Of a stretch of DNA of 44,069 bases, positions 7,307-42,460 are shown in pieces. Under the pieces are notes generated by a model, which saw nothing but the letters and a program-made list of their open reading frames with translations, was not told the DNA's origin and did not search any database. A program made the translations under genes and the position numbers. How positions within the stretch are numbered: the stretch's first letter is position 1; each line of letters begins with the position of its first letter. Origin of the DNA: Coriobacteriales bacterium (GTDB taxonomy: Bacteria > Actinomycetota > Coriobacteriia > Coriobacteriales > UBA8131); assembly GCA_031277035.1 (NCBI GenBank), contig JAISLY010000035.1, positions 1-44,069 of the forward strand, given 5' to 3'.

Positions 7307-9223
7307 ATGGCTGCCAGGCCGGAACAGGAGCAAAGCACCGAGCGAGAACGCGGCGGTGGGCGAGAGCAGAGCACCGAGCGAGAACTCAAACAGCTCCAGC
7401 GCCAACTGCGACGCATGGAGCGCAGCTACCAGTCGCTTGCCCTGATGCACGAGCAGAGCGAACGGCTCCGCGCAACCAACGAGTCGGCTCGCGACCTGTC
7501 CTATTTCTACAATCGGCTGCTGCTTAAAAACACACCGGGCGTCATCTTCATGCTCGACCTGAAGCTTCGCTTCGTGCTGGGAAGCGAACTGATGCTCAAA
7601 CGTCTCGGGTTTCTCGACATGCGCGAGATGGTCGGTCTGACCCTCGCTGAGGTTTTAGGCAAGGTGTTTCCCCCCGAATGGGTGGAGCGTTTAGCCAAGC
7701 GCTGTCAGCAGGTCATCGACACGATTTGCGAAATGGAATTCGAGGAGCGGGTAACCCTGCTCTCCGGTGAGAAGCGCGTCTACCAGATAGCCATGACTCC
7801 GGCCGACGAAGATGGAAGGGAGTGCCAGGGCGTTGTCCTCGTCTTTAACGACGTGACGGAGTTGGCAAGCGCCCGTCTGGCGGCCGAGGAGGCAAGCCGC
7901 ACCAAAAGCGAGTTTCTCTCAAACATGAGCCACGAGATGCGTACTCCCTTAAACGCCATCATCGGCATGACGGCGATTGGGCGGGCTGCCGATGATTCTG
8001 AACGCAAGCAGCACTGCCTGGTCAAAATTGACAAGGCCTCCCACCATCTTCTCGGCGTGATTAACGACATCCTCGATATGGGCACGATGGAATCGGGCGA
8101 GCTGGAGCTTGTGCAGGCCGCCTTTGAGGTGCAGGACATGCTTGCCAGGGTGGTGCGCCTGAACGCGTATCACGCCGAGGAAAAGAAACAGACCCTGGCG
8201 CTGGAGATTGACGAAGGTTTGCCCCAGGTATTGATTGGCGACGAGCAGCGGCTGATTCAGATACTTAACAACCTGCTCTCAAACGCGGTGAAGTTCACCG
8301 GTGAGGGTGGCCGAATCTCCCTGACGGCACGGCGGGCGCGCACTGCCGAGGAGCCGGAGGCTGCTTCGGTGCGCCTTGAGTTTCTCGTCAGCGACACGGG
8401 CATCGGCATCACCGAAGAGCAGCGGGCACGCCTCTTTGAGGTCTTTGCCCAGGCAGATAACTCGGCGACGCGACGCTACGGCGGCACCGGACTGGGGCTG
8501 GCTATCTCCAAACGTCTGGTCGAGGCCATGGACGGTTCGATATGGGTTCGTTCCACGCCGGGCGAAGGGTCGACCTTTGGCTGCACCGTCGTACTCGCAT
8601 ACGAGCATTCAGAGGAAGCGTTAGGCTTGACCGGCTCGCAGAAAGCCCGGTCGGATGCGGGGGACGGCGCTGGGGGCGACACCCAGGACAGCGCGGGAAG
8701 CAGCGCGGCTTTAGCTATCGACCTGAGCCCAGGCGAGGATGCCAAGGCCGATGCGAGCACGGATGGAGCGAAAGGCAGTGCCGAGAGCGGCGCGAGGCGC
8801 GACGCAAAAGGCCCGGCCGAAGACGCAGGCGAGCCTGACTATCGGGGCCATACCATCCTGATGGCGGAGGATACCGAGGTGAACGCCGAGATTATCCTGG
8901 CCATACTCGAGCCAACCGGCCTTACAATCGACTGGGTGGTAGACGGGGCTCAGGCGCTGGCACGCTTCTCAGAAACGCCGGGGCGTTACGACCTGATCCT
9001 GATGGACATACAGATGCCCGAGATGGACGGTCTGAAGGCCACGCGGCGCATCCGTTCGCTTGAGGTGCCCGAAGCCCAGACGATACCGATACTCGCGATG
9101 ACGGCCAATGTCTTTGCGGACGATGTGAAACGATGTCTGGAACACGGCATGAACGGCCATCTGGGAAAACCGATTGACTTCGATGCCCTCTTTGCCACTC
9201 TCGATCGCTATCTCGGACGATAG
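7307..9223 (+). CDS. Soluble hybrid histidine kinase (PAS-HisKA-HATPase-REC)
   Basis: About 638 residues without membrane segments. Order: charged, Gln/Glu/Arg-rich coiled-coil N-terminus (1-60), PAS domain (about 70-190), HisKA with the phospho-acceptor His at about residue 209 in [10 protein letters not shown], HATPase_c with N box [10 protein letters not shown] and G box DTGIGI, a low-complexity Gly/Ala/Asp/Ser linker (about 440-515), then a receiver domain with the phospho-acceptor Asp near 567 in [13 protein letters not shown]. The FIST gene lies directly upstream and an NrfD-like gene starts 22 bases downstream. No DNA-binding output domain is fused, so phosphate must pass to an unlinked regulator or act through protein contacts. 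Domain calls are firm; the signal is unknown. Confidence 0.95.
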
Positions 9224-9245: not shown

Positions 9246-10292
9246 GTGCTCTCTGCTCTGACGATAACATACTTGTTTATGAGTGGAGCGGGCGCAGGAG
9301 CAGTAGCCCTGCTTGCCGCAGATGATCTGTTGCCCTTACACACAACCCGCGCCACATCGTCTGGGAACACCTCCCGTCTATCGTCAAGTCGATTCTGTCG
9401 ACAGGCGCCTCAGCCGATTCTTGCGCTGGGCATGATCACCGGCGTCGGCGCCCTTGCCGCAGGTGCACTCTGCCTGTTCCTTGACCTCGGGCGAGCCGAC
9501 CGTGTAGCCAACCTCCTCCTCAGTCCCACTTTCAGTCATATCACACTGGGCACCTACGCCCTGTTGCTTGCCCTCCTCTGCGCTGTTGCCGTGAGCCTGT
9601 TGGCAAGCGGCGTTGTTCGCCTGTCACCGCAGATCACGGGACGAGTACGATGTATCCTTGAACTCGGCGCGTTGATAGCGACTCTCGTGGTCATGCTCTA
9701 CACCGGCCTGCTCTTTTTCAGCATGGGCACCGGCCTTCTGCTGGGTAGCTTTCTTGTGCCAGTCCTGTTTGTGCTTTCCTCGCTCTCGACGGGAAACGCG
9801 CTGCTTCTTGGCGTCGCCTACCTGAGTGGCCTGTCCGGCAGCGCCCCAGAAAGCCAATCGAGGGGATGCTTGCGCGCAGCGGTGGACAGGGGCGCTTCTG
9901 GTGCCAGGAGCAGTGTCTGTGCGAAGCATCATGCGAGACTGAACAACGAGAGCAGGGCTGCCCTCGCTCACACGGGGCTCTTTCGCCTGGATCGAATTCT
10001 GATCCTCGCTGAACTTCTCTGTCTTGCCGGCTTTCTGCTGCTGGCATTTGGCGAGCCCTTCCACGAGGCGACTCTGTTCGCGCTCACGCAGGGCTCCTAC
10101 GCGGTCGCGTTCTGGGGAGGCCTGGTGATCTGCGGCCTTATCGCGCCTCTCTGTATGGAGACAAGTGGCCTTGCCCGTCGTATTCTCCCTGGCATCGACC
10201 CTGCACTGCCCGCCGCCGTCTGTGTACTGACTGGCGGCTACTGTCTGCGATACTGCATTCTGGGCGCCGGCTTGCCGCTCTTTGCGCTCTAA
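9246..10292 (+). CDS. NrfD/PsrC-like membrane protein (cassette A)
   Basis: About 348 residues with roughly eight membrane segments and a hydrophilic insert of about 60 residues near 200-245. It belongs to the NrfD/PsrC/DmsC-like group of quinol-interacting anchors, shown by FLDLGRADRVANLLL, TGLLFFSMG and VLFVLSSLSTGNALL. The start is GTG at 9246 with GGAG eight bases upstream. Normally such a protein anchors a ferredoxin-type and a catalytic subunit, but neither lies next to it. It is followed by a GntR regulator and an SPFH protein, and the same three families recur at 39531-41848. It is shorter and more divergent than the NrfD of the molybdoenzyme operon at 16238. Function beyond quinone or quinol interaction is not known. 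Confidence 0.82.
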   Translation: MLSALTITYLFMSGAGAGAVALLAADDLLPLHTTRATSSGNTSRLSSSRFCRQAPQPILALGMITGVGALAAGALCLFLDLGRADRVANLLLSPTFSHITLGTYALLLALLCAVAVSLLASGVVRLSPQITGRVRCILELGALIATLVVMLYTGLLFFSMGTGLLLGSFLVPVLFVLSSLSTGNALLLGVAYLSGLSGSAPESQSRGCLRAAVDRGASGARSSVCAKHHARLNNESRAALAHTGLFRLDRILILAELLCLAGFLLLAFGEPFHEATLFALTQGSYAVAFWGGLVICGLIAPLCMETSGLARRILPGIDPALPAAVCVLTGGYCLRYCILGAGLPLFAL

Positions 10293-10425: not shown

Positions 10426-10980
10426 GTGAAGAAATCGAAGGTGCCCATTGAGCTTGATCCGCGAAGCGACCTGCCTCTTTGGGTACAGTTGCGCAAACGG
10501 CTCGTGCACCTGATCAATATCGGCCACTATCGGCCAGGCGACCAGCTGCCCACGGTGCGTGGCCTCGCGTCCGGCCTTTCCATCAATTACAACACGGTCA
10601 ACAAGGCATATCTCAGCATGATCCATGATGGCTTTATCACCTCTACGCAGGGACGCGGTGTCTTTGTGAGCGCGTCTGAAGCCTCCGACGAGGAGCAGAT
10701 GCTTGAGGCCGACGCTCTTATGCGCGACTTTATCGAAGCGTGTCGCGACCTGGGCCTGACGACCTGGGACATACGGAAATTGCTTATGCGACAGCTGCGT
10801 CAACTGGAAACGCAAAGGCCTTTGGAGGGAGACGAAGAGGCGGAGTCCGGGGCAGAGTTGACAATCGGGCAGGGCGACAAAGGAGTATCGACAGCCGGGC
10901 AGGAGAGTCGGACGACAGCCCGGTCGGCCGGGACAAAGCCGGATGAGGAAACGACAGGTAGTCGGGCAAGGGGAGCGTGA
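10426..10980 (+). CDS. GntR-family regulator, YtrA type (cassette A)
   Basis: About 184 residues. The N-terminal winged helix-turn-helix (residues about 8-75) is clear: LPLWVQLRKRL, GDQLPTVRGLASGL and NYNTVNKAYLSM. There is no large effector domain, only a short helical C-terminal part and a low-complexity tail, typical of the YtrA subfamily that controls neighbouring membrane or ABC proteins. Start is GTG at 10426 after TGAGGAGTCC. It ends just before the SPFH gene, so the two are translationally coupled. The 133 bases between the NrfD stop and this start could hold a separate promoter; TATAAG near 10402 is the only box-like feature. Its likely target is the cassette itself. Confidence 0.92.
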   Translation: MKKSKVPIELDPRSDLPLWVQLRKRLVHLINIGHYRPGDQLPTVRGLASGLSINYNTVNKAYLSMIHDGFITSTQGRGVFVSASEASDEEQMLEADALMRDFIEACRDLGLTTWDIRKLLMRQLRQLETQRPLEGDEEAESGAELTIGQGDKGVSTAGQESRTTARSAGTKPDEETTGSRARGA

Positions 10981-10985
10981 GAGGC

Positions 10986-11954
10986 ATGTGGAACAGGAAG
11001 AAAAACGGTGAGGGCGATGTGGTAGTGCCGCTGCCAAACAGGCCAGAGAACGGCGAAATCGCCACACGCGTAGGTGTGGGCTTATTGCAACTGGTGCTTT
11101 TTATCCTCATATTCACGACGGTAGCCTGCCTTGTCTGGCTCGCGACGCGAGGACTCGCCGCACAGGATCCAACATCTCGAGGAGCCGACCTTCTTGCGCT
11201 TGTAATCGCACTTGTCCTGGCGCTTATCGGCCTTGCCACCGTGCACATCGCCCAGCAGTGGGAGCGTGTTGTTGTGCTGCGACTCGGACGCTTTGATCGC
11301 GTTGCCGGGCCGGGATTGTTCTTCACCATCCCCATCATCGAGTCCTGCACCCTGCGCGTGGATACGCGTGTGCGCACAACCCCCTTTGGAGCGGAGGAAA
11401 CGCTCACGAGCGACCTTGTGCCACTCGATGTGGATGCTGTGCTGTACTGGCTGGTCTGGGACGCGCGCCTTGCCTGCACCGAAGTGAGCGATTTTACACA
11501 GGCCGTCAGCTTTGCGGCTCAGACGGCGCTACGCGATGCGATAGGACGCGGCAGTACGGCGGAGGTCGCCATACGTCGAAACCAGCTCGACCGTGAACTC
11601 AAGCAGGCACTCGAGGAAAAGGTCGCACCCTGGGGCATCACGGTTCTCTCGGTTGAGATCAGGGACATCCTCATACCCAAGGAGCTTCAGGAGGTCATGT
11701 CGCTTGAGGCGCAGGCAGAGCAGCGCAAGAAGGCGCGCATTATCCTCATGGAGGCCGAGCAGGACATCTCCGAGATGCTTGCCGAGATGGGAGACACCTA
11801 TGCCATACACGACCACGCTCTGCGGCTGCGCATGATGCACCTGCTGTACGAGAGCGTAAAGGACAGTGGCGGTACGGTGGTCATCCCGAGCACCTTCAGT
11901 GAGACTTTCAGGGACATCTCCGCCGACGATCTGGGAAAACTGATGAAAGCCTGA
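10986..11954 (+). CDS. SPFH/stomatin-like (slipin) protein (cassette A)
   Basis: About 322 residues. Two hydrophobic segments (roughly 20-80) precede the SPFH domain, seen in QQWERVVVLRLGRFDRVAGPG, in VDTRVRTTP and in VLSVEIRDILIPKELQ, then a short coiled coil rich in Glu/Ala. Slipins form oligomeric membrane scaffolds and organise or protect partner membrane proteins. The chosen ATG at 10986 has GGGGAG ten bases upstream; a GTG at 10977 overlapping the GntR stop is possible but sits too close to that site. A near identical arrangement with a paralogue lies at 39988. No NfeD partner, which often accompanies slipins, is present. The partner here is more likely the NrfD-like protein. Confidence 0.93.
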   Translation: MWNRKKNGEGDVVVPLPNRPENGEIATRVGVGLLQLVLFILIFTTVACLVWLATRGLAAQDPTSRGADLLALVIALVLALIGLATVHIAQQWERVVVLRLGRFDRVAGPGLFFTIPIIESCTLRVDTRVRTTPFGAEETLTSDLVPLDVDAVLYWLVWDARLACTEVSDFTQAVSFAAQTALRDAIGRGSTAEVAIRRNQLDRELKQALEEKVAPWGITVLSVEIRDILIPKELQEVMSLEAQAEQRKKARIILMEAEQDISEMLAEMGDTYAIHDHALRLRMMHLLYESVKDSGGTVVIPSTFSETFRDISADDLGKLMKA

Positions 11955-12081: not shown

Positions 12082-12336
12082 AGTGCCTGGCTTGATAAAG
12101 ACCTTGCGATACGAATCCATGAGTTTCATCTGTCGAATCATGGGGGTATGGGGTCTCATGCTGTTTTCGCATTCGATCTCAGGAAACATCGTGACGGCAT
12201 CGCGGCAGCAGCGCTTCGCCGGGCTTCGCCGGGCATCGCTTGGCTCGACTTCTACGATATAATAGGGACTGATATTCCCGCACAGGAGGTGTGCCATGAC
12301 CGTCGAAGAAATGGAACGCGAACTTATCAAGCTTGA
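12079..12336 (+). pseudogene. Possible Doc/Fic-type toxin remnant
   Basis: ATG at 12079 overlaps the preceding stop (ATGA), as in coupled toxin-antitoxin pairs. The first residues, WLDKDLAIRIHEFHLSNHGG, resemble the N-terminus of death-on-curing toxins. The similarity ends after about 22 residues, the HPFxxGN catalytic motif is absent, and the frame then runs through a duplicated GCTTCGCCGGG and the promoter of the next gene. It is probably a truncated relic. Confidence 0.27.
12258..12263 (+). promoter_or_regulatory. -10 box for the toxin-antitoxin operon
   Basis: A perfect TATAAT stands 33 bases before the antitoxin ATG in otherwise GC-rich DNA. No good -35 box lies 16-18 bases upstream (ATCGCT), so an activator or a weak promoter is likely. 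AGGAGG near 12283 is the ribosome site. Confidence 0.5.
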
Positions 12337-12574
12337 TGCCGACGGGCGCTCCCGAGTCTATTATTTCCTCCTGGACCTCATGGAGCAGGACGGCTTTTCT
12401 GAGGACATCCCAGAAGAAGAATACGACAGGCTGTGGGCCGAGGAATGCAAACGGCGCTGCGAAGAAATCGATGCAGGGAAAGTGGAGCTAATTCCAGCAG
12501 AGGAGGTTTTTGCGCGGGCCAGAGCCAAATTGACCAAACGACAATTTGAGCTTGCCGGAAAACTGAAACTATGA
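12296..12574 (+). CDS. Addiction module antitoxin (unstable antitoxin family)
   Basis: A 92-residue acidic protein of the addiction-module component family (PF09720-like). It shows the typical N-terminal helix (KLDADGRSRVYYFLLDLM), the W-A-E-E-C-K-R-R segment, and the signature EIDAGKVELIPAEEVFARARAKL. The protein should bind and neutralise the toxin encoded next, whose start overlaps the stop by four bases (ATGA). AGGAGG lies seven bases before the ATG. Autoregulation with the toxin is usual for the family, and the TATAAT at 12258 is the likely target promoter. Confidence 0.9.
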   Translation: MTVEEMERELIKLDADGRSRVYYFLLDLMEQDGFSEDIPEEEYDRLWAEECKRRCEEIDAGKVELIPAEEVFARARAKLTKRQFELAGKLKL

Positions 12575-12873
12575 GCAGGTCGATTCGATTCCATCCTCGG
12601 GCGAAGGAGGAATATGAAGAAGCCCTCTCTTATTATCAAGAGCGCAGTGAAGACGCTGCTCTACGCTTTGAGGCATCAATCAATACGTGCCTTTTGAGGA
12701 TTGCTGATGACCCGGAGCGATATTTCTCCCATTCAGGAATTCGTTGTTGCAGGGTAATCGTCTTTCCTTATTTTATTCATTATCGAGAAGGCGATTCGGA
12801 GATACAAATCGTTGCCGTGGCACACCAGAAGCGCAAGCCGGGCTATTGGCTGTCGAGAGTTGCCGATAACTGA
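12571..12873 (+). CDS. RelE/ParE-family toxin
   Basis: A 100-residue basic protein of the RelE/ParE superfamily. Family features: N-terminal IRFHPRAKEEYEEALSYYQERS, then IADDPERYF, the core strand RVIVFPYFIHYR and the C-terminal strand QIVAVAHQKRKPGYW with the Arg-Lys-Pro-x-Tyr motif. ParE types act on gyrase and RelE types cleave mRNA on the ribosome; this one, with AHQKRKPGYW, looks nearer the ParE side, but activity cannot be read from sequence. It overlaps the antitoxin gene by four bases, so toxin synthesis is coupled to antitoxin synthesis. Confidence 0.92.
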   Translation: MSRSIRFHPRAKEEYEEALSYYQERSEDAALRFEASINTCLLRIADDPERYFSHSGIRCCRVIVFPYFIHYREGDSEIQIVAVAHQKRKPGYWLSRVADN

Positions 12874-12920: not shown

Positions 12921-12985
12921 TCCTACAGTTAGGATAATGATTCGAAAAATTGTCATAGGACACATCTTGATTGTCATAGGACAAT
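12921..12985 (+). promoter_or_regulatory. Operator cluster upstream of the molybdoenzyme operon
   Basis: Two copies of ATTGTCATAGGACA lie at 12949-12962 and 12970-12983, 21 bases apart, i.e. two helical turns on the same face. The second is a full palindrome, ATTGTC-ATAG-GACAAT. A third dyad, TCCTA-CAGT-TAGGA, is at 12921-12934 with the same 4-base spacer. Such spacing suits a dimeric regulator binding cooperatively. The regulator is not encoded next to it. Confidence 0.65.
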
Positions 12986-13172: not shown

Positions 13173-15608
13173 ATGTCCGAGGGATTATCACGGCGGCAAT
13201 TTGTTAAGACCGGAGCCGTTGGCACCGCACTTCTCGGAGCGGGCGCAGCAGGATTACTCAGCTTTAGCAATTGGATACAGGAGGCAGGAGCAGAGGAAGC
13301 GGAATCGGAAGAGCGGATAGCCTATACGTATCACCAGGAACATTGTGGTGGATATTGTTCGCTTAAATGTACGGTTCGCAATGGTCGCCTCTGCCTGATT
13401 GAACCAAATGACAATTGGGAGAACAGTTCCCGTAGGGTTTGTTGTGTCAGAGGCCTCTCGGAGATTCAGAACATCTATAGCACTGAACGCATACAGACTC
13501 CCCTCAAACGGGTAGGAGAGCGTGGAGCTGGAGAGTTTGTTGCCATCTCGTGGGACGAAGCTATTGACACCATAGCGAAGGCCGTGAAAGATTCTCAGGA
13601 ACAGTACGGAAAAGACAGCGTTTTGTTGCGCCTGTCGGCTGAGCCGAAATATCCGCTCCTGGCTTCGATCCTCGGATGCCAAACCGGAGGCTTTACCGGC
13701 GAAGATGTTGGCGTTGGTAACGGCCTGGATCCGTCGATCGGCTATGTGCCTGGTACGTGGGTGGGCGTCAACTACGCAATTTCCACAAACGATGCACGTG
13801 ACCTTGTGAACTCGAAATACTTCATCAATGTAGGAAGCAACTATCTTGAGTCCAGCATGGGCCAAGTCTCTTATTTTTTCGATGCCAAGGAGGCCGGGTG
13901 CCACATTATCACTGTAGACCCGCACTTTAGCACCACCGCATCAAAATCTGACGAGTGGATTCCTATTATTCCTGGAACCGATACTGCACTCTTTTTGGGG
14001 ATGGCACGCGTCATCATAGAAAAGCAACTTTATAACGAGGATTTCATGCGAGAAAAGACTGCCTTTCCTTTCCTTGTCAATGAAGCCGACAAGACGTTGT
14101 TGCGCGAGCATCCTGTCGATTCTGTCGCCGGAGAGCCAGAGACCCTGGAGCAGAATCCGTATCTCGTATGGGATGAGAACAGTGGGTCTCTTCAGCCCTT
14201 CAATGCCGAAGGCATTAAGCCCTCCCTGGAGGCCAGCGGCACCACAGACGGCAAAACCTACCGGACAGTCTTCTCAGTCTTCAAGGAAAACCAGGAGGAC
14301 TATACGCTGACCTGGGCAGCAGAGACGACCGGCATAAGCGAAGATAAGATTGCCTATCTTGCAGAATGCTATGCTGATGGGCCAAGTTCGCTCGGTCTTG
14401 GTTGGGGCGGTGTCGATAAGTTTGCCAATGCAGATACTGTGGGGCATGCGGCCGCTGTACTGGTTGCCTTGACCGGCAACATCGGTACCGAAGGTGCTGG
14501 TGTCGGTGTCTATGTGGGGCATTGGAACGGCGACATCATTAACTTCGGCACATGGCCTTTGCCTGAGGACATGGTTCCATCGGCACCGGAAATGAACTTC
14601 TTTGAGATGCCGTATAAGCCCAATAACGTCCATGTGTATCTCAGCTTCGGCGACAAAATTGTGCAGGAAACCCCAAACCTCAACAGGAAAATCGAATGGC
14701 TCAAAACGCTGGATCTTATCGTCTATTGTGACATCCATTTCTCAAGTGGCGGCGTCTGGGCAGATATCGTGCTCCCTGCTTGCTCGAAGTTCGAGTGCGA
14801 CAAGGATTTTGGAGGCGTTCGGGCTGGGAACGGGTTGCTCATGACCCAGCAAAAGGTGCTCGACCCCTTATTTGAAGCCAAACCAGACTTTGTGATTGAG
14901 CGTGAAATCGGCAAGGCGATGGGATTTGAGCACTACCTTCCCAAAAGTCAGGAAGACATAATGGAAGTGCAAGTTGATCCGAAAATCGACCCGCGTCTGA
15001 CAGGGATAACGCTGAGCGCCCTCAAAAACAGCCCGGGCGGCATCGAGATACCGAATCTGGAGAACCCTCGTGTCGCCTATAGAGGACAGCAATTCTGCAC
15101 TCCAACGAAGAGGATGGAAATATACTATGAAGCTATGATAGGCTTTGATCAGCAGCTTCCTCGTTACGAGGAACCGCATGAGGCCTCTGTGAGCAACCCC
15201 CTCAGGGAGAAATACCCGCTACAATGCTGCAGCGCACGCAACAGATACCACATTCATAACCAATTCGGTGGCGCATCGTGGATACAACAGTTCAACGAGC
15301 CTCGAATCGAACTCAATCCAGTGGACTTTCATATGCGAAATCTGCAAGAAGGCGACGTGTGCGAGGTCTTCAACGAGCGAGGGAGTTTCAAATGCAAAAC
15401 AATAATGAATGAAGCGGTGAGACCGGGATCTATGCGTTTCGCAGAAGGGAGCCTGTCTCAATTCATGGTCGAAGGCAACCTGCAAAACGTGACCAATGAA
15501 GTGTTGACAGAGCGCGGCATGGCACAACCGGCGGGACCCGACCTGTCTTTTAACGACACCCTCGTAGAAGTCCGAAAAGCCTCGGCCCGTGAAGGAGGTG
15601 CGTCATGA
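13173..15608 (+). CDS. Tat-exported molybdopterin oxidoreductase, DMSO reductase family catalytic subunit
   Basis: About 811 residues. The ATG at 13173 follows AAGGAGGGC and gives a Tat signal (SRRQFVKTG plus a hydrophobic stretch); the longer frame upstream is not protein-like. HCGGYCSLKC, with a later Cys in RRVCCVRG, binds a [4Fe-4S] cluster. The molybdopterin domain follows (FVAISWDEAIDTIAKAV, NSKYFINVGSNYLES, DWGG-like LGWGGVDKFA) and a C-terminal molydopterin-dinucleotide-binding domain ends it. The residue that would ligate Mo lies in or near GEDVGVGNGLD, but I cannot assign it. The next genes supply a ferredoxin subunit, a membrane anchor and a chaperone, so this is a quinol-linked respiratory reductase or oxidase facing outward. 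Base composition is somewhat less GC-rich than its neighbours, hinting at acquisition. The substrate is unknown. Confidence 0.93.
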   Translation: MSEGLSRRQFVKTGAVGTALLGAGAAGLLSFSNWIQEAGAEEAESEERIAYTYHQEHCGGYCSLKCTVRNGRLCLIEPNDNWENSSRRVCCVRGLSEIQNIYSTERIQTPLKRVGERGAGEFVAISWDEAIDTIAKAVKDSQEQYGKDSVLLRLSAEPKYPLLASILGCQTGGFTGEDVGVGNGLDPSIGYVPGTWVGVNYAISTNDARDLVNSKYFINVGSNYLESSMGQVSYFFDAKEAGCHIITVDPHFSTTASKSDEWIPIIPGTDTALFLGMARVIIEKQLYNEDFMREKTAFPFLVNEADKTLLREHPVDSVAGEPETLEQNPYLVWDENSGSLQPFNAEGIKPSLEASGTTDGKTYRTVFSVFKENQEDYTLTWAAETTGISEDKIAYLAECYADGPSSLGLGWGGVDKFANADTVGHAAAVLVALTGNIGTEGAGVGVYVGHWNGDIINFGTWPLPEDMVPSAPEMNFFEMPYKPNNVHVYLSFGDKIVQETPNLNRKIEWLKTLDLIVYCDIHFSSGGVWADIVLPACSKFECDKDFGGVRAGNGLLMTQQKVLDPLFEAKPDFVIEREIGKAMGFEHYLPKSQEDIMEVQVDPKIDPRLTGITLSALKNSPGGIEIPNLENPRVAYRGQQFCTPTKRMEIYYEAMIGFDQQLPRYEEPHEASVSNPLREKYPLQCCSARNRYHIHNQFGGASWIQQFNEPRIELNPVDFHMRNLQEGDVCEVFNERGSFKCKTIMNEAVRPGSMRFAEGSLSQFMVEGNLQNVTNEVLTERGMAQPAGPDLSFNDTLVEVRKASAREGGAS

Positions 15609-16222
15609 CCCGCCTTGCCATTGTCATCAATCAGGACCGCTGCATCGGCTGTCAGACCTGCGCAAACGCCTGCAAAATGGAGAACAATGTGCCGATGGGG
15701 ATGCTCTGGAACCGCGTCATCACCGTGGGCAGCGACGTTATCGACGGTGCGGTTGGCACCTATCCCAACCTGACGCGCGAGTATCTGCCGATGGCCTGCC
15801 AGCACTGCGACAACCCGGCTTGCCAGGCGGTCTGCCCGGTGGGTGCCACCTATACCGACGAGGCAGGGCGCGTCCTTATCAACTACGACATCTGCATCGG
15901 CTGCCGCATTTGCATGGCCGCCTGTCCCTACAACGCCCGCGTGTTCAATTGGGAGGAGCCGGTGCGCGACCCGGACTTCAATTACGGACACAAGGACGTC
16001 CCCGTGCGCCCCCGCGGCGTTACCGAGAAATGCACGCTTTGCAAGGAGCGCACCGACGAGGACAGGGAGCCGATGTGTGTCACCTGCTGCCCCACAAAGG
16101 CACGCAGCTTTGGCGACCTGGATAATCCCTCAAGCGCCGTCTCGGCACTTATCCGTGAAAAGAGCGCCTACCAACTACTGCCCGAGCGGGGCACCAGCCC
16201 CAAGACCCGCTACTTCAAATAA
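15605..16222 (+). CDS. Four-cluster ferredoxin subunit (DmsB/PsrB-like)
   Basis: About 205 residues with four cysteine groups: CIGCQTCANACKMENN, CQHCDNPACQAVCP, CIGCRICMAACPYNARVFN and CTLCKERTDEDREPMCVTCC, together able to hold four [4Fe-4S] clusters. It passes electrons between the membrane anchor and the molybdopterin subunit. The ATG overlaps the stop of the catalytic gene by four bases, so the two are coupled. It lacks its own export signal and would be carried out with the Tat-bearing partner. Length and motif spacing are normal for the family. Confidence 0.95.
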   Translation: MTRLAIVINQDRCIGCQTCANACKMENNVPMGMLWNRVITVGSDVIDGAVGTYPNLTREYLPMACQHCDNPACQAVCPVGATYTDEAGRVLINYDICIGCRICMAACPYNARVFNWEEPVRDPDFNYGHKDVPVRPRGVTEKCTLCKERTDEDREPMCVTCCPTKARSFGDLDNPSSAVSALIREKSAYQLLPERGTSPKTRYFK

Positions 16223-16237
16223 GGGGAGTGAGCAACC

Positions 16238-17569
16238 ATGACATCCAAAAAAGCAGACACTGTGGCACGCGCAGCAACTCCCATGCCAAACTCGTCAAAA
16301 AAGGCCATCCCTGCAATCGTTATACTCGCTATCATCACCCTCGTTGGCATCGGTGCCTGGGTCTACCAGCTTGCCAACGGCCTGGCGGTCACGGGCATGA
16401 ACAACGGTACCTCGTGGGGCCTTTACATCACCTGTTTCATGTTCTTTGTGGGACTTTCTGCAGGTGGCCTCATCGTGGCAAGTTCGGCAGCGGTGTTTGG
16501 CGTCAGGCAGTACAAGCAGGTCGCAAAGCCGGCGGTGCTGCTCTCCACGGTATGCATCATCGCTGCCGCTGCCTTTGTGCTCATCGACCTGGGCGGCGTG
16601 CAGCGTGTCTTTAACCTGATACTGCATCCCAACCTCACCTCGCCGCTCATGTGGGACGTTTTGGTCATCGCCATCTACCTCATCATCAACATCGTCTACC
16701 TGGTGCTCATGGGCCGCCGCAGCAACGTGGCGAGCGACCGTGCGCTGGCCATCACCTCACGCCTCGCGTTGCCTGTTGCGATACTCGTGCACTCGGTGAC
16801 TGCCTGGATATTTGGGCTTCAGATTGCCAAGGTCGGTTGGCACAGTGCCATCCTTGCGCCCCTGTTTGTGACCTCGGCGCTTGATTCGGGCCTTGCGCTG
16901 TTGCTCATCGTGTTGGTCGTTCTCAACGCGACCAAGCTTTTCGCGACATCCAAAAAGCTGCTCTCCAGCCTCGCTGGCCTGCTGGCGGTCTGCATTGCCG
17001 TGGATGCCTTCATGGTGGGCTGCGAAATCCTCACGATGGCCTACCCGTCCGCGCCTGAGGAAGCCGCCGTCCTCACATTGCTGTTCACCGGCTCGTCGGC
17101 ACCGCTGTTCTGGGGAGAGATCGTCCTCGGACTCGCCGTTCCCTTCCTCCTGCTGGTGTTCAGCCGGCTGCGCGAGAGCGTAGGGGTAATCGTGGTGGCA
17201 TCGGCGCTCGTGGTTGTTGGGGTGTTCCTCAAGCGCGCATGGCTTCTGCTTACGTCTTTTGTCACATTCAACGTAGCGGGAGCGCCTGGCGTCGCCTACG
17301 GTCGCTCAGGGCTTGACGGGACGGACATCTGGTCACTTATCGGAACCTATGCCCCCACGTGGGTCGAGGTCACCGTCACGCTCGGGGTTATCGCGCTGGC
17401 AGCCCTCATCTACGTTCTGCTCGCGCCGCGCCTGTTTGCCGGTGAGGACGGGCACCTTGAACTTGCATCAGCTGGTGCGCCTGCCTTTGCCACGCCCTTG
17501 GAGCCGGCTTTGCCCTCAGCTGATGCATCAACAGCCGCGGCGCTTGGTACTGCGGCAAAGACCACCTGA
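16238..17569 (+). CDS. NrfD-type membrane anchor of the molybdoenzyme
   Basis: About 443 residues with nine or ten membrane segments, including GMNNGTSWGLYITCFMFFVG, which is characteristic of NrfD-family anchors, and LIDLGGVQRVFNLIL. The last 40 residues form an Ala/Pro-rich hydrophilic tail. It should exchange electrons with the quinone pool and hold the catalytic and ferredoxin subunits at the membrane. It starts 15 bases after the ferredoxin gene with GGGGAGTG upstream. It is only distantly similar to the shorter NrfD-like proteins at 9246 and 40952. Confidence 0.92.
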   Translation: MTSKKADTVARAATPMPNSSKKAIPAIVILAIITLVGIGAWVYQLANGLAVTGMNNGTSWGLYITCFMFFVGLSAGGLIVASSAAVFGVRQYKQVAKPAVLLSTVCIIAAAAFVLIDLGGVQRVFNLILHPNLTSPLMWDVLVIAIYLIINIVYLVLMGRRSNVASDRALAITSRLALPVAILVHSVTAWIFGLQIAKVGWHSAILAPLFVTSALDSGLALLLIVLVVLNATKLFATSKKLLSSLAGLLAVCIAVDAFMVGCEILTMAYPSAPEEAAVLTLLFTGSSAPLFWGEIVLGLAVPFLLLVFSRLRESVGVIVVASALVVVGVFLKRAWLLLTSFVTFNVAGAPGVAYGRSGLDGTDIWSLIGTYAPTWVEVTVTLGVIALAALIYVLLAPRLFAGEDGHLELASAGAPAFATPLEPALPSADASTAAALGTAAKTT

Positions 17570-17598
17570 CACGAAGCGACGGACGGGAGGGCAGCATC

Positions 17599-18435
17599 AT
17601 GAGCACAGGAATCGCGGACGCAGAGACCGTGGCTGCGGGCACCGTGGCTGCGGGCACCGCGAGCACACGCATCACGGACGCGAGCAGACAGGATATCTGG
17701 AAACTGAGAAGCGAACTCTACGCCTTCTTTGGCAACAGTCTGCTGCAAGTCATGACCACGCGCACCGCCCTGACCCTTGATGTCGCCTTTTGGGAGGGCT
17801 TTCCACTTGAACAGACAAACGGGCACATAAAGGCCGGACTTGCCGGGCTTGCTTCCTGCACGCAAGAGCTTTCTGCGCTCGACCGCGACAAGGCGGTCGA
17901 GCGCGTGGGCGTCGAGTACACGCGGCTTTTCATCGGCCCCGGCAAACCGGCGGCACCACCGTGGGAATCCCTGTATCACGAAGGCGGGACGGTGCTCTTT
18001 GGGCAACCCACCTCCGACATGAGGAAGCTCTTTGCCGCGCAAGGTCTCAAGGCCAGTACCGACAGCCATCAGTTTGAGGATCATCTGGGCTTTGAGCTGC
18101 TCTATCTGGGAGTGACCGGCGCGCGTTTTGTCGAACAGGGGCCCTCTGCTGAGCTGATGGAGCAGCAGGCTGATTTTATCCGCGAACATCCGCTCTCGTT
18201 TATCGAATCGCTTTGGGGAAAGGCGAACACAGCCGTTGGCGGAGCCTCCACGTCCTCGTCTGATGTCTTGTCTACATCTGTCCCGACCCCTGTCTTGTTC
18301 GCCGCTCCGCCCCCTGCCAAACCCCTCGCCGCGCCGCCCGCTACAACTGCCCTCCCCGGCTACTACCCCGCCCTCATCGAACTCATCTGGGGATTTTTAC
18401 TCTGGGACCTTGACCTGCTGGAAGACTGCGATTAA
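17599..18435 (+). CDS. TorD/DmsD-family molybdoenzyme chaperone
   Basis: About 278 residues, all-helical. The segment VEYTRLFIGPGKPAAPPWESLY is the family signature, followed by the conserved DHLGFELLYL helix region. TorD-type chaperones bind the Tat signal of their cognate molybdoenzyme and assist cofactor loading before export. Placement as the last gene of the operon fits this. An Ala/Thr-rich N-terminus and a Pro/Ala-rich insert near residues 215-255 lengthen it relative to the usual 200 or so residues. It converges with the PadR gene 63 bases away. Confidence 0.92.
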   Translation: MSTGIADAETVAAGTVAAGTASTRITDASRQDIWKLRSELYAFFGNSLLQVMTTRTALTLDVAFWEGFPLEQTNGHIKAGLAGLASCTQELSALDRDKAVERVGVEYTRLFIGPGKPAAPPWESLYHEGGTVLFGQPTSDMRKLFAAQGLKASTDSHQFEDHLGFELLYLGVTGARFVEQGPSAELMEQQADFIREHPLSFIESLWGKANTAVGGASTSSSDVLSTSVPTPVLFAAPPPAKPLAAPPATTALPGYYPALIELIWGFLLWDLDLLEDCD

Positions 18436-37222: not shown

Positions 37223-39142
37223 CTAAACCGTGTTAAAGGCAGCGCGAGCACTTTCGAGAGGAGTGGGGTATTCGACTCCCATGATTGAATGCGCGGCAAG
37301 CCAGGCAAGGGTCACGCAGCGCCCCATGCACAGTCCTCCGTAGAGCTGCGGATAGTTGCCATTGAAGAAGCCGCCCACGTCGTTGCCCGAGAGATACAGG
37401 CCCTCGATGGGATTGCCGGCCTTATCCACAGCATTAAAGTCGTAGTTCACATGGATACCACCGAGGGTCGCAAGCGCCCAGCCTGCCATTTTAGCCGCGT
37501 AGAAGGGCGGCTCGTCAATGGCGGAAAGACGCCAGGGCGCTTTGGAGTGGTCGGTATCGGTGCCGGAGGCAACCACCTCGTTGTAGCGTTCGACCGTAGC
37601 GAGAAAGGCGTCGGCGGGGACTCCCATCTGGGCCGCGAGGTCCTCGATGGTGTCGGCGGTGAGAAGATTGCCGTTATCGACGTTGGGCTGAATATAGACG
37701 TCGTTCCATTCCTGCGCGTCGCGGCAGGGGTAGAACTGACCGAGCAGCAGGCAGTTCTTGGCGCCTTCTTCAGCCACGACGCGACTGCAGATGGTGGTGC
37801 CAAAATTCACGACGTCCTCCCAACTGCTGCCATCGAATACCTGCCACCAGAAGTGCCCGGGTTGCTGAACCGCCGTGTTGAATTCAAAGTCATAGGGCCC
37901 ATCCTCGTTACAAAAGCGCTTGCCGAGGGAGTTGACCCGCAGGAAGGGCTGGGAGCCCGGCCACCAGAACGAGGGATTGCCGCCGCCCTGTCCGCCAAGG
38001 TCGCCGTCGCCGCCAGCAGTGATGCAACCGCGGTCAAAGATGAGCATGGAGCCGGCAAGAGAGGTATCGCGATCGGCGCCTGCCCAGGTGGCGAGCTTGA
38101 TGCCGTCGCCGTTGCGGCCATCGCCGCCGATATGGTTTGTGCAGTATTTGTGGCAGGCCACCCCGAGTTGATCCATCATATCCCTGTTGCCAAGGAAGCC
38201 GCCGGTTGCAAGCACGACGCCACGCGATGCGTTGTACTGCACATAGCTGCCATCCTCCTGCTGCGCTATGACACCGGTCACCTTGCCGCCGGCCTCCTGC
38301 ACCAGCTCAACGACCCTGGTGGAATAGTTCACGCTGCCGCCGGCCTCCGCAAAAAGCTCCAGCATGGCCGGCATGGCGACCTCAGAGCCCATGGGGTTTG
38401 CGGTTGCCTCCAGCGGTGGTTTGAAGGCGGAGTGGTAGACGTTGGTGTAGTAGAAATTCTCGGGGTAAAACTTCTTGCGAATCGTGTCCAGCATGACATC
38501 GAGGTTTTTTTTCTGGAGATTTTCCTGATACCAATCCACAAAAGCACCCGAGTTGTATGCCCAGAGCCGGATGAGGTTCTCGTCGGCCTTGCCAGAGGCG
38601 TAGCGCATGAGGTCGTGGATGATGTACTCCTTGTCAACCTGGTAGCCCGCGTCCAACATGAGCTTGCTGTCGCAGGCGTCGATGTCACCGGCCCACATCG
38701 TCGCCCCGCCGCTTTGCTCAAGAATCAGAACCTCGCCACCGAGTTGCGCGGCCTCAAGTGCCAACACGACACCCGAGTTCCCGGCGCCCACGACGATGAC
38801 CTCGTGATCTTCGCTGGAAGCGACCTGGTCTTGGACCGAAGGCGGCTTGGTATCCCAGGCATTGTCTGCTTCTGCGGCTACCTCCGGGCTGGCAGGTGTG
38901 CCCTCTGCGGCGTCTGAGGCAGCAGGCGCCTCAGGGCTGCAGGCGACAACCGTAGCACCGACCGCCGCGAGGGCACCCGCGACACCAATCCCCTTGAGGA
39001 AGCTGCGTCTGTCCATGCCGGAGCTGTCCGCTGCGGAGCTGTCCGCTGCGGCGCTGCCCGCTGCGGCGTCGTCCCTGCCGGCGCTACCCGCTGCGGAGCT
39101 GTCCGCTGCGTCCACTGCGTCGTTTTCCCGCTCGTGTTCCAT
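37223..39142 (-). CDS. Tat-exported FAD-binding reductase with long Ala/Ser N-terminal extension
   Basis: About 639 residues. ATG at 39142 follows GAGAGGAATATT. The twin-arginine motif MDRRSFLKG begins only at about residue 43, after an extension of AADSSAAGSAG-type repeats; an internal start at that Met lacks a ribosome site. A possible lipobox (VVAC) follows the hydrophobic core. The flavin motif VVGAGNSGVVLALEAA is at about residue 135 and the family motif KRFCNEDGPYDFEF lies in the middle. It is of the fumarate reductase flavoprotein group, like 684-2330, with which it shares IEDLAAQMGVPADAFLATVERYNE-like sequence. Substrate unknown. It stands alone between converging and diverging genes. 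Confidence 0.9.
   Translation of the reverse strand: MEHERENDAVDAADSSAAGSAGRDDAAAGSAAADSSAADSSGMDRRSFLKGIGVAGALAAVGATVVACSPEAPAASDAAEGTPASPEVAAEADNAWDTKPPSVQDQVASSEDHEVIVVGAGNSGVVLALEAAQLGGEVLILEQSGGATMWAGDIDACDSKLMLDAGYQVDKEYIIHDLMRYASGKADENLIRLWAYNSGAFVDWYQENLQKKNLDVMLDTIRKKFYPENFYYTNVYHSAFKPPLEATANPMGSEVAMPAMLELFAEAGGSVNYSTRVVELVQEAGGKVTGVIAQQEDGSYVQYNASRGVVLATGGFLGNRDMMDQLGVACHKYCTNHIGGDGRNGDGIKLATWAGADRDTSLAGSMLIFDRGCITAGGDGDLGGQGGGNPSFWWPGSQPFLRVNSLGKRFCNEDGPYDFEFNTAVQQPGHFWWQVFDGSSWEDVVNFGTTICSRVVAEEGAKNCLLLGQFYPCRDAQEWNDVYIQPNVDNGNLLTADTIEDLAAQMGVPADAFLATVERYNEVVASGTDTDHSKAPWRLSAIDEPPFYAAKMAGWALATLGGIHVNYDFNAVDKAGNPIEGLYLSGNDVGGFFNGNYPQLYGGLCMGRCVTLAWLAAHSIMGVEYPTPLESARAAFNTV
39017..39110. 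repeat. 15-base tandem repeats encoding the pre-Tat extension
   Basis: CTGCGGAGCTGTCCG units repeat with variation and encode AADSS-type pentapeptides before the Tat motif of the flavoprotein. Confidence 0.75.
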
Positions 39143-39213
39143 AATATTCCTCTCTCTCTGCGGTGTTTTCCATGACCCTTTTACCATCCCCCACGCGTCG
39201 CGTCAAATGCCGC

Positions 39214-39285
39214 GTCGCCCTGCTGCTCGCCCTGTTGGCCGCCCTGTTGCTCGCCCTGTTGCTCGCCCTGTTGGCCGCCCTGTCT
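39214..39285. repeat. 12-base minisatellite, six units
   Basis: Six units of CTCGCCCTGTTG or GCCGCCCTGTTG lie in the 388-base gap between the flavoprotein start and the GntR gene. A long open frame crosses it on the minus strand, but it only reflects the repeat. The remainder of the gap has a second, 22-base direct repeat (CGGTGGCGCTTGG) near 39410 and 39470. Confidence 0.85.
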
Positions 39286-39344
39286 GGCACGGGCTCCAGC
39301 CTGCTCACAGGAGGGCGCCTGTGGAGGTACGCTGCCAGAGGCCC

Positions 39345-39373
39345 TTGCCTTCGATTGCCTAGTGTCATATGAT
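39345..39373 (+). promoter_or_regulatory. Candidate promoter of cassette B
   Basis: TTGCCT at 39345-39350 and TATGAT at 39368-39373 are 17 bases apart. The start of transcription would be near 39380, about 150 bases before the GntR GTG. A consensus TTGACA at 39384 has no -10 partner. Confidence 0.5.
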
Positions 39374-39530: not shown

Positions 39531-39998
39531 GTGCGAAACTTCGAGATTGATAACGAAAGCGGTATTCCCGTATGGATACAGGTGCGCCGACGCCTTGTCT
39601 ATCTCATTGTCTCAGGCCACTACGGGCCAGGCGAGCAGCTCCCCACCGTGCGCGAGCTGGCCGTACAACTCGACATCAATTACAACACCGTGAGCAAGGT
39701 CTATCAGGATTTGGAGCGGGACGGCTTTATTGTCACCCGCCGCGGACGGGGCACCTTCGTTACCGAGTTTGACGATCTGATGCTTCGCGAGTTGGACAAC
39801 AAGGTAGAACTCCTCGCCGATGAACTGGTACGCGAGGGTCTGGACTTTGGCATGACCGGCCCTGAAATCGTCCGAACGGTACAGGCGCGCCTTGCGCAAT
39901 ACGAATCTAGCAGGACCCCCGCAGGCGAACAATCCTCAGACGACACCGACGTGCAGGCGAAGCAAAAGCCGACGAAGGGACTGCGCTATGCCGGCTAA
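39531..39998 (+). CDS. GntR-family regulator, YtrA type (cassette B)
   Basis: About 155 residues from GTG at 39531, preceded by GGAAGG; the longer frame upstream is repeat-derived. The winged helix (residues about 5-75) closely matches the cassette A protein: IPVWIQVRRRLVYLI, GEQLPTVRELAVQL and INYNTVSKVYQDLERDGFI. A short helical C-terminus replaces a ligand domain. It overlaps the SPFH gene by 11 bases. It probably represses its own operon. Confidence 0.92.
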   Translation: MRNFEIDNESGIPVWIQVRRRLVYLIVSGHYGPGEQLPTVRELAVQLDINYNTVSKVYQDLERDGFIVTRRGRGTFVTEFDDLMLRELDNKVELLADELVREGLDFGMTGPEIVRTVQARLAQYESSRTPAGEQSSDDTDVQAKQKPTKGLRYAG

Positions 39999-40935
39999 GG
40001 ATGCGTCAAAACGCGCTGAGCAGGCGGAGAAGAACAGGCCGCTTGCCTCTATCGATAAATCGGGGGTCAGAGGCAACCGCTCCTCACGCAATGGGGTCTA
40101 CTTCTTTGCAGCAACGGTTTTTTGCCTGGTCATTGCCCTGTTACTTGGCATCGCCTACGCCTGTGACGCGATGAGCGTCTGGCTCATCATCGGCGCGGTT
40201 GTGGTCGCAGCACTTGCGGCATTCTCCATTCGTATCGCACAACAATGGGAGAAGGCCGTTGTCCTGCGCCTTGGCAAGTTTCATCGCGTAGCTGGCCCTG
40301 GCCTGTACCTCATCATCCCCATTGTGGAGCACGTGACCATCTGTATCGATCAGCGCATCATCGCCACCCCCTTTGCCGCCGAGGAAACCCTGACCGCCGA
40401 CTTGGTGAGCGTGGATGTGGACGCCGTGCTGTTTTGGATGGTCTGGGACGCGCGCATGGCCTGCATTGAGGTTGAAAACTATCCCAAAACGGTCGCCTGG
40501 AGCGCACAGACCGCCCTGCGCGACGCCATCGGGCGCGTGAATCTGGCCGAACTCGCCACACGTCGCCGCCAGATTGACGCGCAGCTGCAGGAGACCCTGA
40601 CAGCCAAGACCGAGCCTTGGGGCATCTCCATCATCAGCGTTGAGATACGCGACATCATCATTCCGCAGGAACTGCAGGATTCAATGTCCAAGGCCGCCCA
40701 GGCCGAACGCGAGCGCGATGCGCGTGTGCTGTTGGCCGAAGTGGAAAAGGACATCTCCGAAATGTTCGTCGAGGCGGCCGAGGTATACGACCAAAATGAT
40801 CGGGCAATGCAGCTGCGCACCATGAACCTGATCTATGAAAGCGTGCGCGAGCACGGAGGACTCATTATCGCGCCAAGCGCCTTCTCGGAGGGCTTTAATA
40901 ACATTGAGGAGATTGTCAAGCGCCTGAAGTCGTAG
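39988..40935 (+). CDS. SPFH/stomatin-like (slipin) protein (cassette B)
   Basis: About 315 residues from ATG at 39988, with AAGGGA upstream inside the GntR gene. A charged N-terminus is followed by two hydrophobic segments (about 30-80), then the SPFH domain (QQWEKAVVLRLGKFHRVAGPG, IISVEIRDIIIPQELQ) and a Glu/Ala coiled coil. It is a clear paralogue of 10986-11954, sharing long runs such as ETLTxDLVxxDVDAVL. Expected to form membrane oligomers and to organise the NrfD-like protein encoded 16 bases downstream. Confidence 0.93.
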   Translation: MPAKDASKRAEQAEKNRPLASIDKSGVRGNRSSRNGVYFFAATVFCLVIALLLGIAYACDAMSVWLIIGAVVVAALAAFSIRIAQQWEKAVVLRLGKFHRVAGPGLYLIIPIVEHVTICIDQRIIATPFAAEETLTADLVSVDVDAVLFWMVWDARMACIEVENYPKTVAWSAQTALRDAIGRVNLAELATRRRQIDAQLQETLTAKTEPWGISIISVEIRDIIIPQELQDSMSKAAQAERERDARVLLAEVEKDISEMFVEAAEVYDQNDRAMQLRTMNLIYESVREHGGLIIAPSAFSEGFNNIEEIVKRLKS

Positions 40936-40951
40936 ACGGGAGCGGAGCCTC

Positions 40952-41848
40952 GTGTATTCGCTGTTTATCGTCTGGTACCTCTTTTTGGCCGGCATGGGCA
41001 GCGGGGCCTATGTGCTTGCGGCAATCTTTGGGTTCGCTGGAGGACGATCGCGGGCAAAAGGCCTGCGAGAATATCGGGAGATTACCCGGGGCGGCTTTTA
41101 TCTCGGCCCCTTGCTGGTGATGTTTGGCGCCGTATTCCTGATATTCGACCTCGGCTCCCCCGAGAAAGCCTACCGCCTGTTTCTCAGCACCAGGTTCACC
41201 TACCTCACCTTTGGCTCCTGGGTTGTCCTTGTATTCTGCCTGTTGGCGGCGGCACTCGCCCTTTTGCGCTCAACCGACCGCGTGAGACTACCTCGGCCTG
41301 TGTTCAAGACACTTGAGCTCATCGCCGCCACCTGTGCGCTTGGCATCATGGGCTACACCGGCCTGTTCCTTTCGAGCATGCCCTCGATACCCTTCCTCAA
41401 CAGCCCGCTCATTGTCGTCTTGCTCATTGTCTCCTCGCTGGCCACCGGCTCTGCCCTCATCGCGCTCTATGGCTTTTTTAACCAGCAGCGAAAATCCATG
41501 TTCTTTGGATCGAGAATCATCGTGCGCATCGACCTTGTCCTCATCTTTATCGAGATTCTCATCCTTGCGGCCCTGATTGTCGCAAGCTGCTTTGGAGGCG
41601 ACCTGAGCGCCGCATCCGTTGGCGTGCTGCTCGCTGGCGCGGGAGCCCCTGCGTTTTGGTTTGGCGTGGTACTGCTTGGCCTTGCCGTGCCCTGCGTTGT
41701 CGGAATGCTGGGCCGCCAGTCATCCCACATGGTAAACCAGGCAATCAGCTCAACTGCTGTCCTGCTTGGCGGGCTCGCCCTGCGCTACGCCCTCATCACC
41801 GCCGGCCTGCACGTGGCAGACACGCCAGTCCTGTTGCTCTCGGGATGA
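40952..41848 (+). CDS. NrfD/PsrC-like membrane protein (cassette B)
   Basis: About 298 residues with eight membrane segments. GTG at 40952 follows GGAG. Family features: FLAGMGSGAYVLAAIFG, LIFDLGSPEKAYRLF, GYTGLFLSSMPSIPFLNSP and IVSSLATGSALI. It lacks any neighbouring ferredoxin or catalytic subunit. It matches the cassette A protein in layout (TGLFF/LSSMG-type segment, SSLxTGxALL) but has a much shorter loop between segments 5 and 6. The gene's end abuts the broken ATPase on the other strand. Confidence 0.88.
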   Translation: MYSLFIVWYLFLAGMGSGAYVLAAIFGFAGGRSRAKGLREYREITRGGFYLGPLLVMFGAVFLIFDLGSPEKAYRLFLSTRFTYLTFGSWVVLVFCLLAAALALLRSTDRVRLPRPVFKTLELIAATCALGIMGYTGLFLSSMPSIPFLNSPLIVVLLIVSSLATGSALIALYGFFNQQRKSMFFGSRIIVRIDLVLIFIEILILAALIVASCFGGDLSAASVGVLLAGAGAPAFWFGVVLLGLAVPCVVGMLGRQSSHMVNQAISSTAVLLGGLALRYALITAGLHVADTPVLLLSG

Positions 41849-41859
41849 ACGGGCATGCC

Positions 41860-42460
41860 GGGTGCACCGGGACTGTCATGCGCCCGATTCGCACATCATA
41901 TCCTCGACTCAGCAGTTCGAGGCACACGATGTTCTCCAACACACGCTCGATATCGCGCTCATTATTCCCAAAGACCGCCTCCCTGATCCCGTGGTCGGCA
42001 ATGAAATACTTCTCGTCGATTTTGAGCTGTCGCTTTGAGGGGACATCGAAACGCTTTGCCCGATAGATCAGATAGGCTTCCTCGCAGGCTCTCAGGTAGT
42101 TGAGCACGGTCTCGGGAGCGACTTTTCTTTGTTCACTCATAAAGTATTTGGAGATGCTGTTCGCGGAAAAGTCTGGCCGATGTTGGCGATAACGTAGGAG
42201 ATGATGCGCTCCAGCACATCAACATCGCGGATATTGTTGCGCTTCACAACGTCTTTGATGACAACGGAGTAAAAAACGTCCCTGAGATAGGAAACAGCAT
42301 CGGTGCCAGAGATGCCAAACGCCGCAATGAAAAGCATTCCCCCAGCGTCAAGATATTGGAGAAACACTTCCGGAACGGTACTGGCGGGCTCCTTTGGCGT
42401 GGCACGCTTCCCGTCTGACGAGTAGACAGCGCCTTTGTGAAAAGGTGCTACAGTTTCAGA
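41860..42460 (-). pseudogene. Broken AAA_14/DUF4143 ATPase
   Basis: Two adjacent frames encode consecutive parts of one protein: VFLQYLDAGGMLFIAAFG through RNNIRDVDVLERIISYVIANIGQTF, then SANSISKYFMSEQRKVAPE through DERDIERVLENIVCLELLSRGYDV in the next frame. Removing one T from the run at 42167-42170 explains the shift. The Walker A half is missing at the 5' side and the nuclease-like C-terminal end stops near 41880, where it meets the NrfD gene. The protein is therefore inactive. Confidence 0.85.

Follow-up and report, generated by a model that had tools for sequence, protein, structure and literature searches.

Linked GntR, slipin and NrfD genes of Coriobacteriia probably form an accessory membrane module of molybdoenzyme complexes

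The window analyzed here is the whole of a 44,069-nt stretch (contig JAISLY010000035.1, positions 1-44,069, forward strand) from a Coriobacteriales bacterium (GCA_031277035.1) with a 1.82-Mb genome and an estimated completeness of 72.7%. Two of its loci, cassettes A and B, each encode a short GntR regulator, a slipin/stomatin-like SPFH protein and a small NrfD-type membrane protein (Table 1). Pfam profiles for GntR, Band_7 and NrfD confirmed this composition, which a sequence-only reading had proposed, at both loci. The differing gene order that it described (NrfD first in A, last in B) was also correct, as was the GntR/SPFH overlap. Since SPFH-B truly starts at 39988 and not at earlier in-frame codons, that overlap is 11 nt in B and 4 nt in A. 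Identity between the cassettes is low (NrfD 28-30%, GntR 40%, SPFH 57% over 227 aa), which marks them as diverged copies and not a recent duplication, and NrfD and SPFH trees assign them to two old clades.

Table 1. Genes and sequence elements of cassettes A and B and their surroundings
Feature	Position	Strand	Evidence
NrfD-A, small NrfD/PsrC-type membrane protein	9246..10292	+	PF03916 E 1.2e-18, 68.2 bits (cut-off 25.8)
GntR-A, short GntR regulator	10426..10980	+	PF00392 E 1.4e-12; alignment A3
SPFH-A, slipin/stomatin-like (Band_7)	10977..11954	+	PF01145 E 1.1e-36; 4-nt overlap with GntR-A
Candidate operator for GntR, a pair of ATTGTCATAGGACA repeats (21 bp apart) preceding operon A	12949..12985	.	
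Molybdopterin oxidoreductase A, DMSO-reductase superfamily, Tat signal	13173..15608	+	PF00384 E 1.2e-44; dmsA_ynfE 2.2e-86
4Fe-4S ferredoxin subunit, DsrO/NrfC-like	15605..16222	+	PF13247 E 8.6e-20
NrfD-L, the enzyme's own large NrfD/DsrP-like subunit	16238..17569	+	PF03916 E 1.2e-44; DsrP 7.8e-42
TorD/DmsD-type assembly chaperone	17599..18435	+	PF02613 E 7.5e-24
Promoter-like TTGCCT-17-TATGAT before GntR-B	39345..39373	+	Half-site TGTCATA 39363-39369 overlaps -10
GntR-B	39531..39998	+	PF00392 E 5.5e-17
SPFH-B, slipin/stomatin-like (Band_7)	39988..40935	+	PF01145 E 1.8e-35; stomatin chains E 6e-36
NrfD-B	40952..41848	+	PF03916 E 9.7e-35, 121.1 bits (cut-off 25.8); AlphaFold, Foldseek
Decayed DUF4143 gene abutting NrfD-B	41796..42367	-	PF13635 fragment

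CISM complexes comprise a catalytic Mo subunit, a 4Fe-4S subunit, a membrane subunit and a TorD or FdhD chaperone. A complete set of this kind (catalytic, 4Fe-4S and membrane subunits plus chaperone) is encoded in one run in operon A (13173-18435), which begins 1.2 kb downstream of SPFH-A; the start codon of its molybdopterin oxidoreductase was picked by RBS and Tat motif. The earlier statement that neither cassette contains a ferredoxin or catalytic subunit is thus literally true, but it hinges on where the boundary of the cassette is drawn. The stronger claim that the cassettes lack redox partners was wrong for A and is unproven for B, since a molybdoenzyme with its ferredoxin adjoins A, nearly all relatives and the loci of Eggerthella lenta. 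Two further features were observed around cassette A. Between it and operon A (12296-12873) lie a 92-aa ORF and then a ParE-type toxin gene (PF05016). On the other side, the gene of a hybrid PAS histidine kinase with a receiver domain (7307-9223) lies 22 nt upstream of NrfD-A, and could share a transcript with cassette A.

With SPFH-B as the sole query, one scan of 84,980 species genomes returned 80 loci, 55 coriobacterial and 25 from other phyla. Genes were called in these loci and sorted by profiles built from the same loci. As the search used SPFH only, linkage to NrfD and molybdoenzyme genes was not selected for. Among the coriobacterial loci, GntR lay less than 200 bp from SPFH in 55/55, NrfD within 1.5 kb in 47/55 and a molybdoenzyme within 7 kb in 47/55; most loci without NrfD or a molybdoenzyme are contig ends. 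The expectation of a recurrent three-family unit under a local GntR, with SPFH linked to NrfD across Coriobacteriia, was therefore upheld, and the co-occurrence is far beyond chance. Writing MOLY for the molybdopterin oxidoreductase gene and Fer4 for the 4Fe-4S ferredoxin subunit gene, three main layouts were seen: (i) NrfD-GntR-SPFH-MOLY-Fer4-NrfD(large)-TorD, of which cassette A is the 5′ half; (ii) MOLY-Fer4-TorD-NrfD-GntR-SPFH; and (iii) GntR-SPFH-NrfD with a molybdoenzyme nearby. The NrfD and SPFH trees have their main clades in common, and NrfD-A falls in one NrfD clade with L055, L110 and L039. The best explanation for cassette A is that it serves the enzyme at 13173-18435. Because operon A and the type (i) enzymes own a large NrfD, the cassette NrfD would not be their sole membrane subunit.

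Outside Coriobacteriia the picture was different. GntR was adjacent to SPFH in 23 of the 25 loci, but only one locus had NrfD within 1.5 kb and only three had a molybdoenzyme. Two of these three are from Sporomusa, where GntR-SPFH-MOLY-Fer4-NrfD form one run behind a palindrome. Since the pairs of other phyla mostly lack NrfD, GntR-slipin is the broader unit and the NrfD link mainly coriobacterial. On the best reading of these neighbourhoods, an older pairing of GntR and slipin, that of Bacillota and Chloroflexota, is the basis of the module. Most pairs in those phyla also lack a molybdoenzyme, so the basic role of the slipin need not concern one. Other combinations were also recorded. At L071 (7112-11496) and L079, both among the coriobacterial misses counted above, and at L076, the genes further downstream of GntR-SPFH encode two molybdopterin proteins of the sulfite-oxidase type, a ferredoxin and NrfD, which places the pair beside another molybdoenzyme family. 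At L098 (8676-10799) and its relatives, a small membrane protein of the ferric-reductase-like kind (PF01794) belongs to the molybdoenzyme units, perhaps as a haem b anchor.

The complete, single-contig genome of E. lenta DSM 2243 (3,632,260 bp; PMC3035228) carries six SPFH genes of this subfamily. In five of the six, NrfD is no more than 0.7 kb away and a molybdoenzyme no more than 1.4 kb away; the sixth has NrfD at 3.7 kb. The genome holds about 34 molybdoenzyme genes. The probability that five in six would by chance have NrfD within 1.5 kb was calculated as approximately 2e-8, and that of a molybdoenzyme within 4 kb as 3e-5. Neither gene lies near a seventh SPFH gene, which is dissimilar. 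The SPFH that best matches SPFH-B in this genome (64% identity) is encoded in an NrfD-GntR-SPFH-MOLY-Fer4-FdhD locus, L119. According to the summary of McCurry et al. 2024 in PMC11835702, Elen_2454-2451 was found responsible for glucocorticoid 21-dehydroxylation and consists of SPFH, molybdopterin oxidoreductase, Fer4 and FdhD genes. The SPFH-MOLY-Fer4-FdhD portion of L119 matches that composition as summarized, the match being by gene order and domains and not by locus tags. The same SPFH subfamily stands beside a molybdoenzyme and ferredoxin at both, but the cluster as presented in that summary ends at the SPFH gene, whereas in L119 GntR and NrfD lie directly upstream. The enzymes of our window also differ in sequence; the operon A molybdoenzyme shares 26% identity over 421 aa with that of L119 and does not qualify as an ortholog of Elen_2453. 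The sequence-only reading knew of no described system of this make-up. This needs amending, as an SPFH gene is already part of the published cluster summarized in PMC11835702; our literature search found no paper naming SPFH together with NrfD, so that part of the statement stood. The E. lenta catechol dehydroxylases Dadh, Cadh and Hcdh (PMC7028382) resemble operon A in having a Tat-exported molybdoenzyme, a 4Fe-4S subunit and a putative membrane anchor. In contrast, no SPFH appears in the text of PMC7028382, and their regulation is different as far as described there.

A candidate operator emerged solely from comparing sets of gene-upstream regions. The top-enriched 7-mer upstream of coriobacterial MOLY, GntR and NrfD genes was TATGACA/TGTCATA (p 4.5e-13). 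As TGTC(A/C)TA, this half-site was found upstream of 36/48 MOLY, 6/35 GntR and 7/31 NrfD genes versus 19/268 control genes, and in 18 of 26 groups once relatives were collapsed. In eight held-out loci it preceded 7/14 targets versus 0/54 controls (p 3.5e-6). The paired ATTGTCATAGGACA pattern occurs once in the 1.82-Mb genome, before molybdoenzyme A, and the half-site is absent upstream of that genome's other 11 molybdoenzyme genes. Similarly, the 12-mer TTGACTGTCMTA has a single occurrence in E. lenta, where it precedes the molybdoenzyme gene in the B-like cluster. Some linked molybdoenzymes lack the half-site upstream. Palindromes such as ATTGTACTAATATATTAGTACAAT occur at several GntR-SPFH promoters of Bacillota and Chloroflexota. 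For most coriobacterial GntR genes a strict palindrome search returned no upstream operator, and a matrix from the Bacillota sites scored weakly in Coriobacteriia. The shared motif suggests that the regulator controls neighboring molybdoenzymes, with GntR as the putative motif-binding protein.

At cassette B, no catalytic or 4Fe-4S subunit adjoins within the 2.2 kb up to the contig end. An intact DUF4143 gene follows the decayed copy, and the latter is a sign of rearrangement at the place where relatives L014 and L015 carry a molybdoenzyme. These two, which with L013 are the closest relatives of cassette B, have layout (iii) with the half-site upstream of the nearby molybdoenzyme. Given the decayed gene, the contig end and a genome that is 73% complete, cassette B is most likely a module detached from its enzyme, which may lie elsewhere in the genome, lie in the missing quarter or have been lost. 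We also considered B as the detached tail of another molybdoenzyme of this genome, C56, a MOLY-Fer4-TorD set without NrfD that is 55-68% identical to type (ii) enzymes. We did not retain this as the preferred option, since the type (ii) clades include neither NrfD-B nor SPFH-B, C56 comes with a ferric-reductase-like membrane protein and two-component genes of its own, and its upstream region has no half-site. The region upstream of the C40 molybdoenzyme likewise has none. Six imperfect GCCCTGTTG-like repeats with 12-nt spacing lie at 39203-39295, between a divergent flavoprotein gene and GntR-B.

Structural comparisons were made for the B proteins. The AlphaFold model of NrfD-B (pLDDT 92.7) had ActC and PsrC as its best Foldseek matches (8k9e_C, TMq 0.78; 2vpw_C, TMq 0.61); the eight-helix NrfD fold was recognized in this way for NrfD-B only. 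PDB sequence searches with NrfD-B, NrfD-A and a 36-row profile returned no NrfD-family structure. The high-confidence prediction of the NrfD/PsrC fold makes quinone chemistry a reasonable inference for NrfD-B, and the earlier suggestion of a quinone-type membrane protein agrees with this model. NrfD-B thus shares its predicted fold with the quinone-reactive subunits PsrC, ActC/ActF and QrcD. Unlike these, the cassette proteins are encoded with a GntR-slipin pair and, beside operon A, in addition to a second NrfD. The nearest solved relatives of SPFH-B are human stomatin and PH stomatin, with QmcA also near, which suggests a membrane oligomer; the predicted SPFH monomer model is of low confidence. 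The Band_7 domain and these relatives place it with the slipin/stomatin branch, but here the slipin has a GntR regulator as its partner, joined in Coriobacteriia by NrfD. The two GntR proteins (155 and 184 aa) consist of a winged helix and a short C-terminal region, in keeping with the YtrA type, and Pfam detected no effector domain in either.

Taken together, the family identities and their conserved linkage, the agreement between NrfD and SPFH clades, the operator-like sequence before both gene sets and the predicted NrfD/PsrC fold lead us to regard the GntR-SPFH-NrfD cassette as probably a GntR-controlled accessory membrane module of CISM complexes, composed of a slipin and a quinone-reactive NrfD. 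We infer that GntR would bind the TGTC(A/C)TA half-sites and repress its own transcript and the neighboring molybdoenzyme operon until released by a signal. NrfD would exchange electrons with menaquinol and hand them to the ferredoxin subunit. As a membrane oligomer, the slipin may surround or flank NrfD and the enzyme, in contact with the former, and would organize the enzyme complex or protect it, with a presumed effect on its stability. Points that count against this reading are the large NrfD that operon A and the type (i) enzymes already have, the many GntR-SPFH pairs of Bacillota and Chloroflexota with neither NrfD nor a molybdoenzyme close by, the linked molybdoenzymes that lack the half-site, and the want of an enzyme beside B in the available sequence.

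Other explanations have to be set against this one. The sequence-only reading envisaged a scaffolded NrfD that interacts with quinone and stands alone, without a catalytic partner. Nothing catalytic lies to the right of B up to the contig end, and L022 and L046 have the cassette with no molybdoenzyme in reach. However, the latter two are truncated by contig ends, B adjoins a decayed gene, and a molybdoenzyme accompanies the cassette at 47 of the 55 loci from Coriobacteriia and at five of the six in the complete E. lenta genome, usually with the motif; we consider this reading very unlikely. Cassette B could instead serve the divergent Tat flavoprotein (37223-39187) with which it has a common intergenic region. 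The half-site of Table 1 is located between the two, and the genus-mate cassette L022/L108 also has a neighboring flavoprotein. This is improbable, as the flavoprotein is not conserved in L013-L015, of which L014 and L015 have a nearby molybdoenzyme with the motif upstream instead.

A more general alternative takes GntR-SPFH for a generic membrane-stress pair, found next to molybdoenzymes only because it occurs in genomes rich in them, as that of E. lenta is. It would suit the Bacillota and Chloroflexota pairs, most of which lack NrfD and molybdoenzyme, and their autoregulatory-looking palindrome. The chance calculation in E. lenta, the half-site upstream of the molybdoenzymes themselves and the match between SPFH and NrfD clades all speak against it, and we judge it unlikely. 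HflK and HflC tune the FtsH protease, and the slipin might similarly act in quality control of a membrane enzyme through protease tuning and not as an electron-transfer scaffold. Distant NCBIfam HflK matches of the slipin favor this view, but they score far below the cut-off, stomatins and QmcA are closer among solved structures, and no protease gene was identified among the shared neighborhood families. Loss of HflKC in E. coli lowers respiration and ubiquinone (PMC12005517), an observation that fits protease tuning and that is a parallel, not proof, for a slipin role in enzyme organization. On balance, protease tuning seems doubtful.

Returning to the accessory module, we tentatively propose that slipin, extra NrfD and GntR form a dedicated module common to many gut molybdoenzymes, in which the slipin cages the NrfD-enzyme complex and GntR couples expression to the state of the module. 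If true, it would mean that anaerobic respiratory enzymes have an SPFH scaffold of their own. Gut Coriobacteriia possess dozens of molybdoenzymes acting on drugs, polyphenols and steroids, whose control and wiring to the quinone pool are poorly known. The recurrent module and its candidate operator may offer a way to predict which molybdoenzymes are co-controlled, and they add two upstream genes, GntR and NrfD, to be considered at the 21-dehydroxylation locus of E. lenta. They would also provide a bacterial setting for testing what stomatin-family proteins do for respiratory enzymes.
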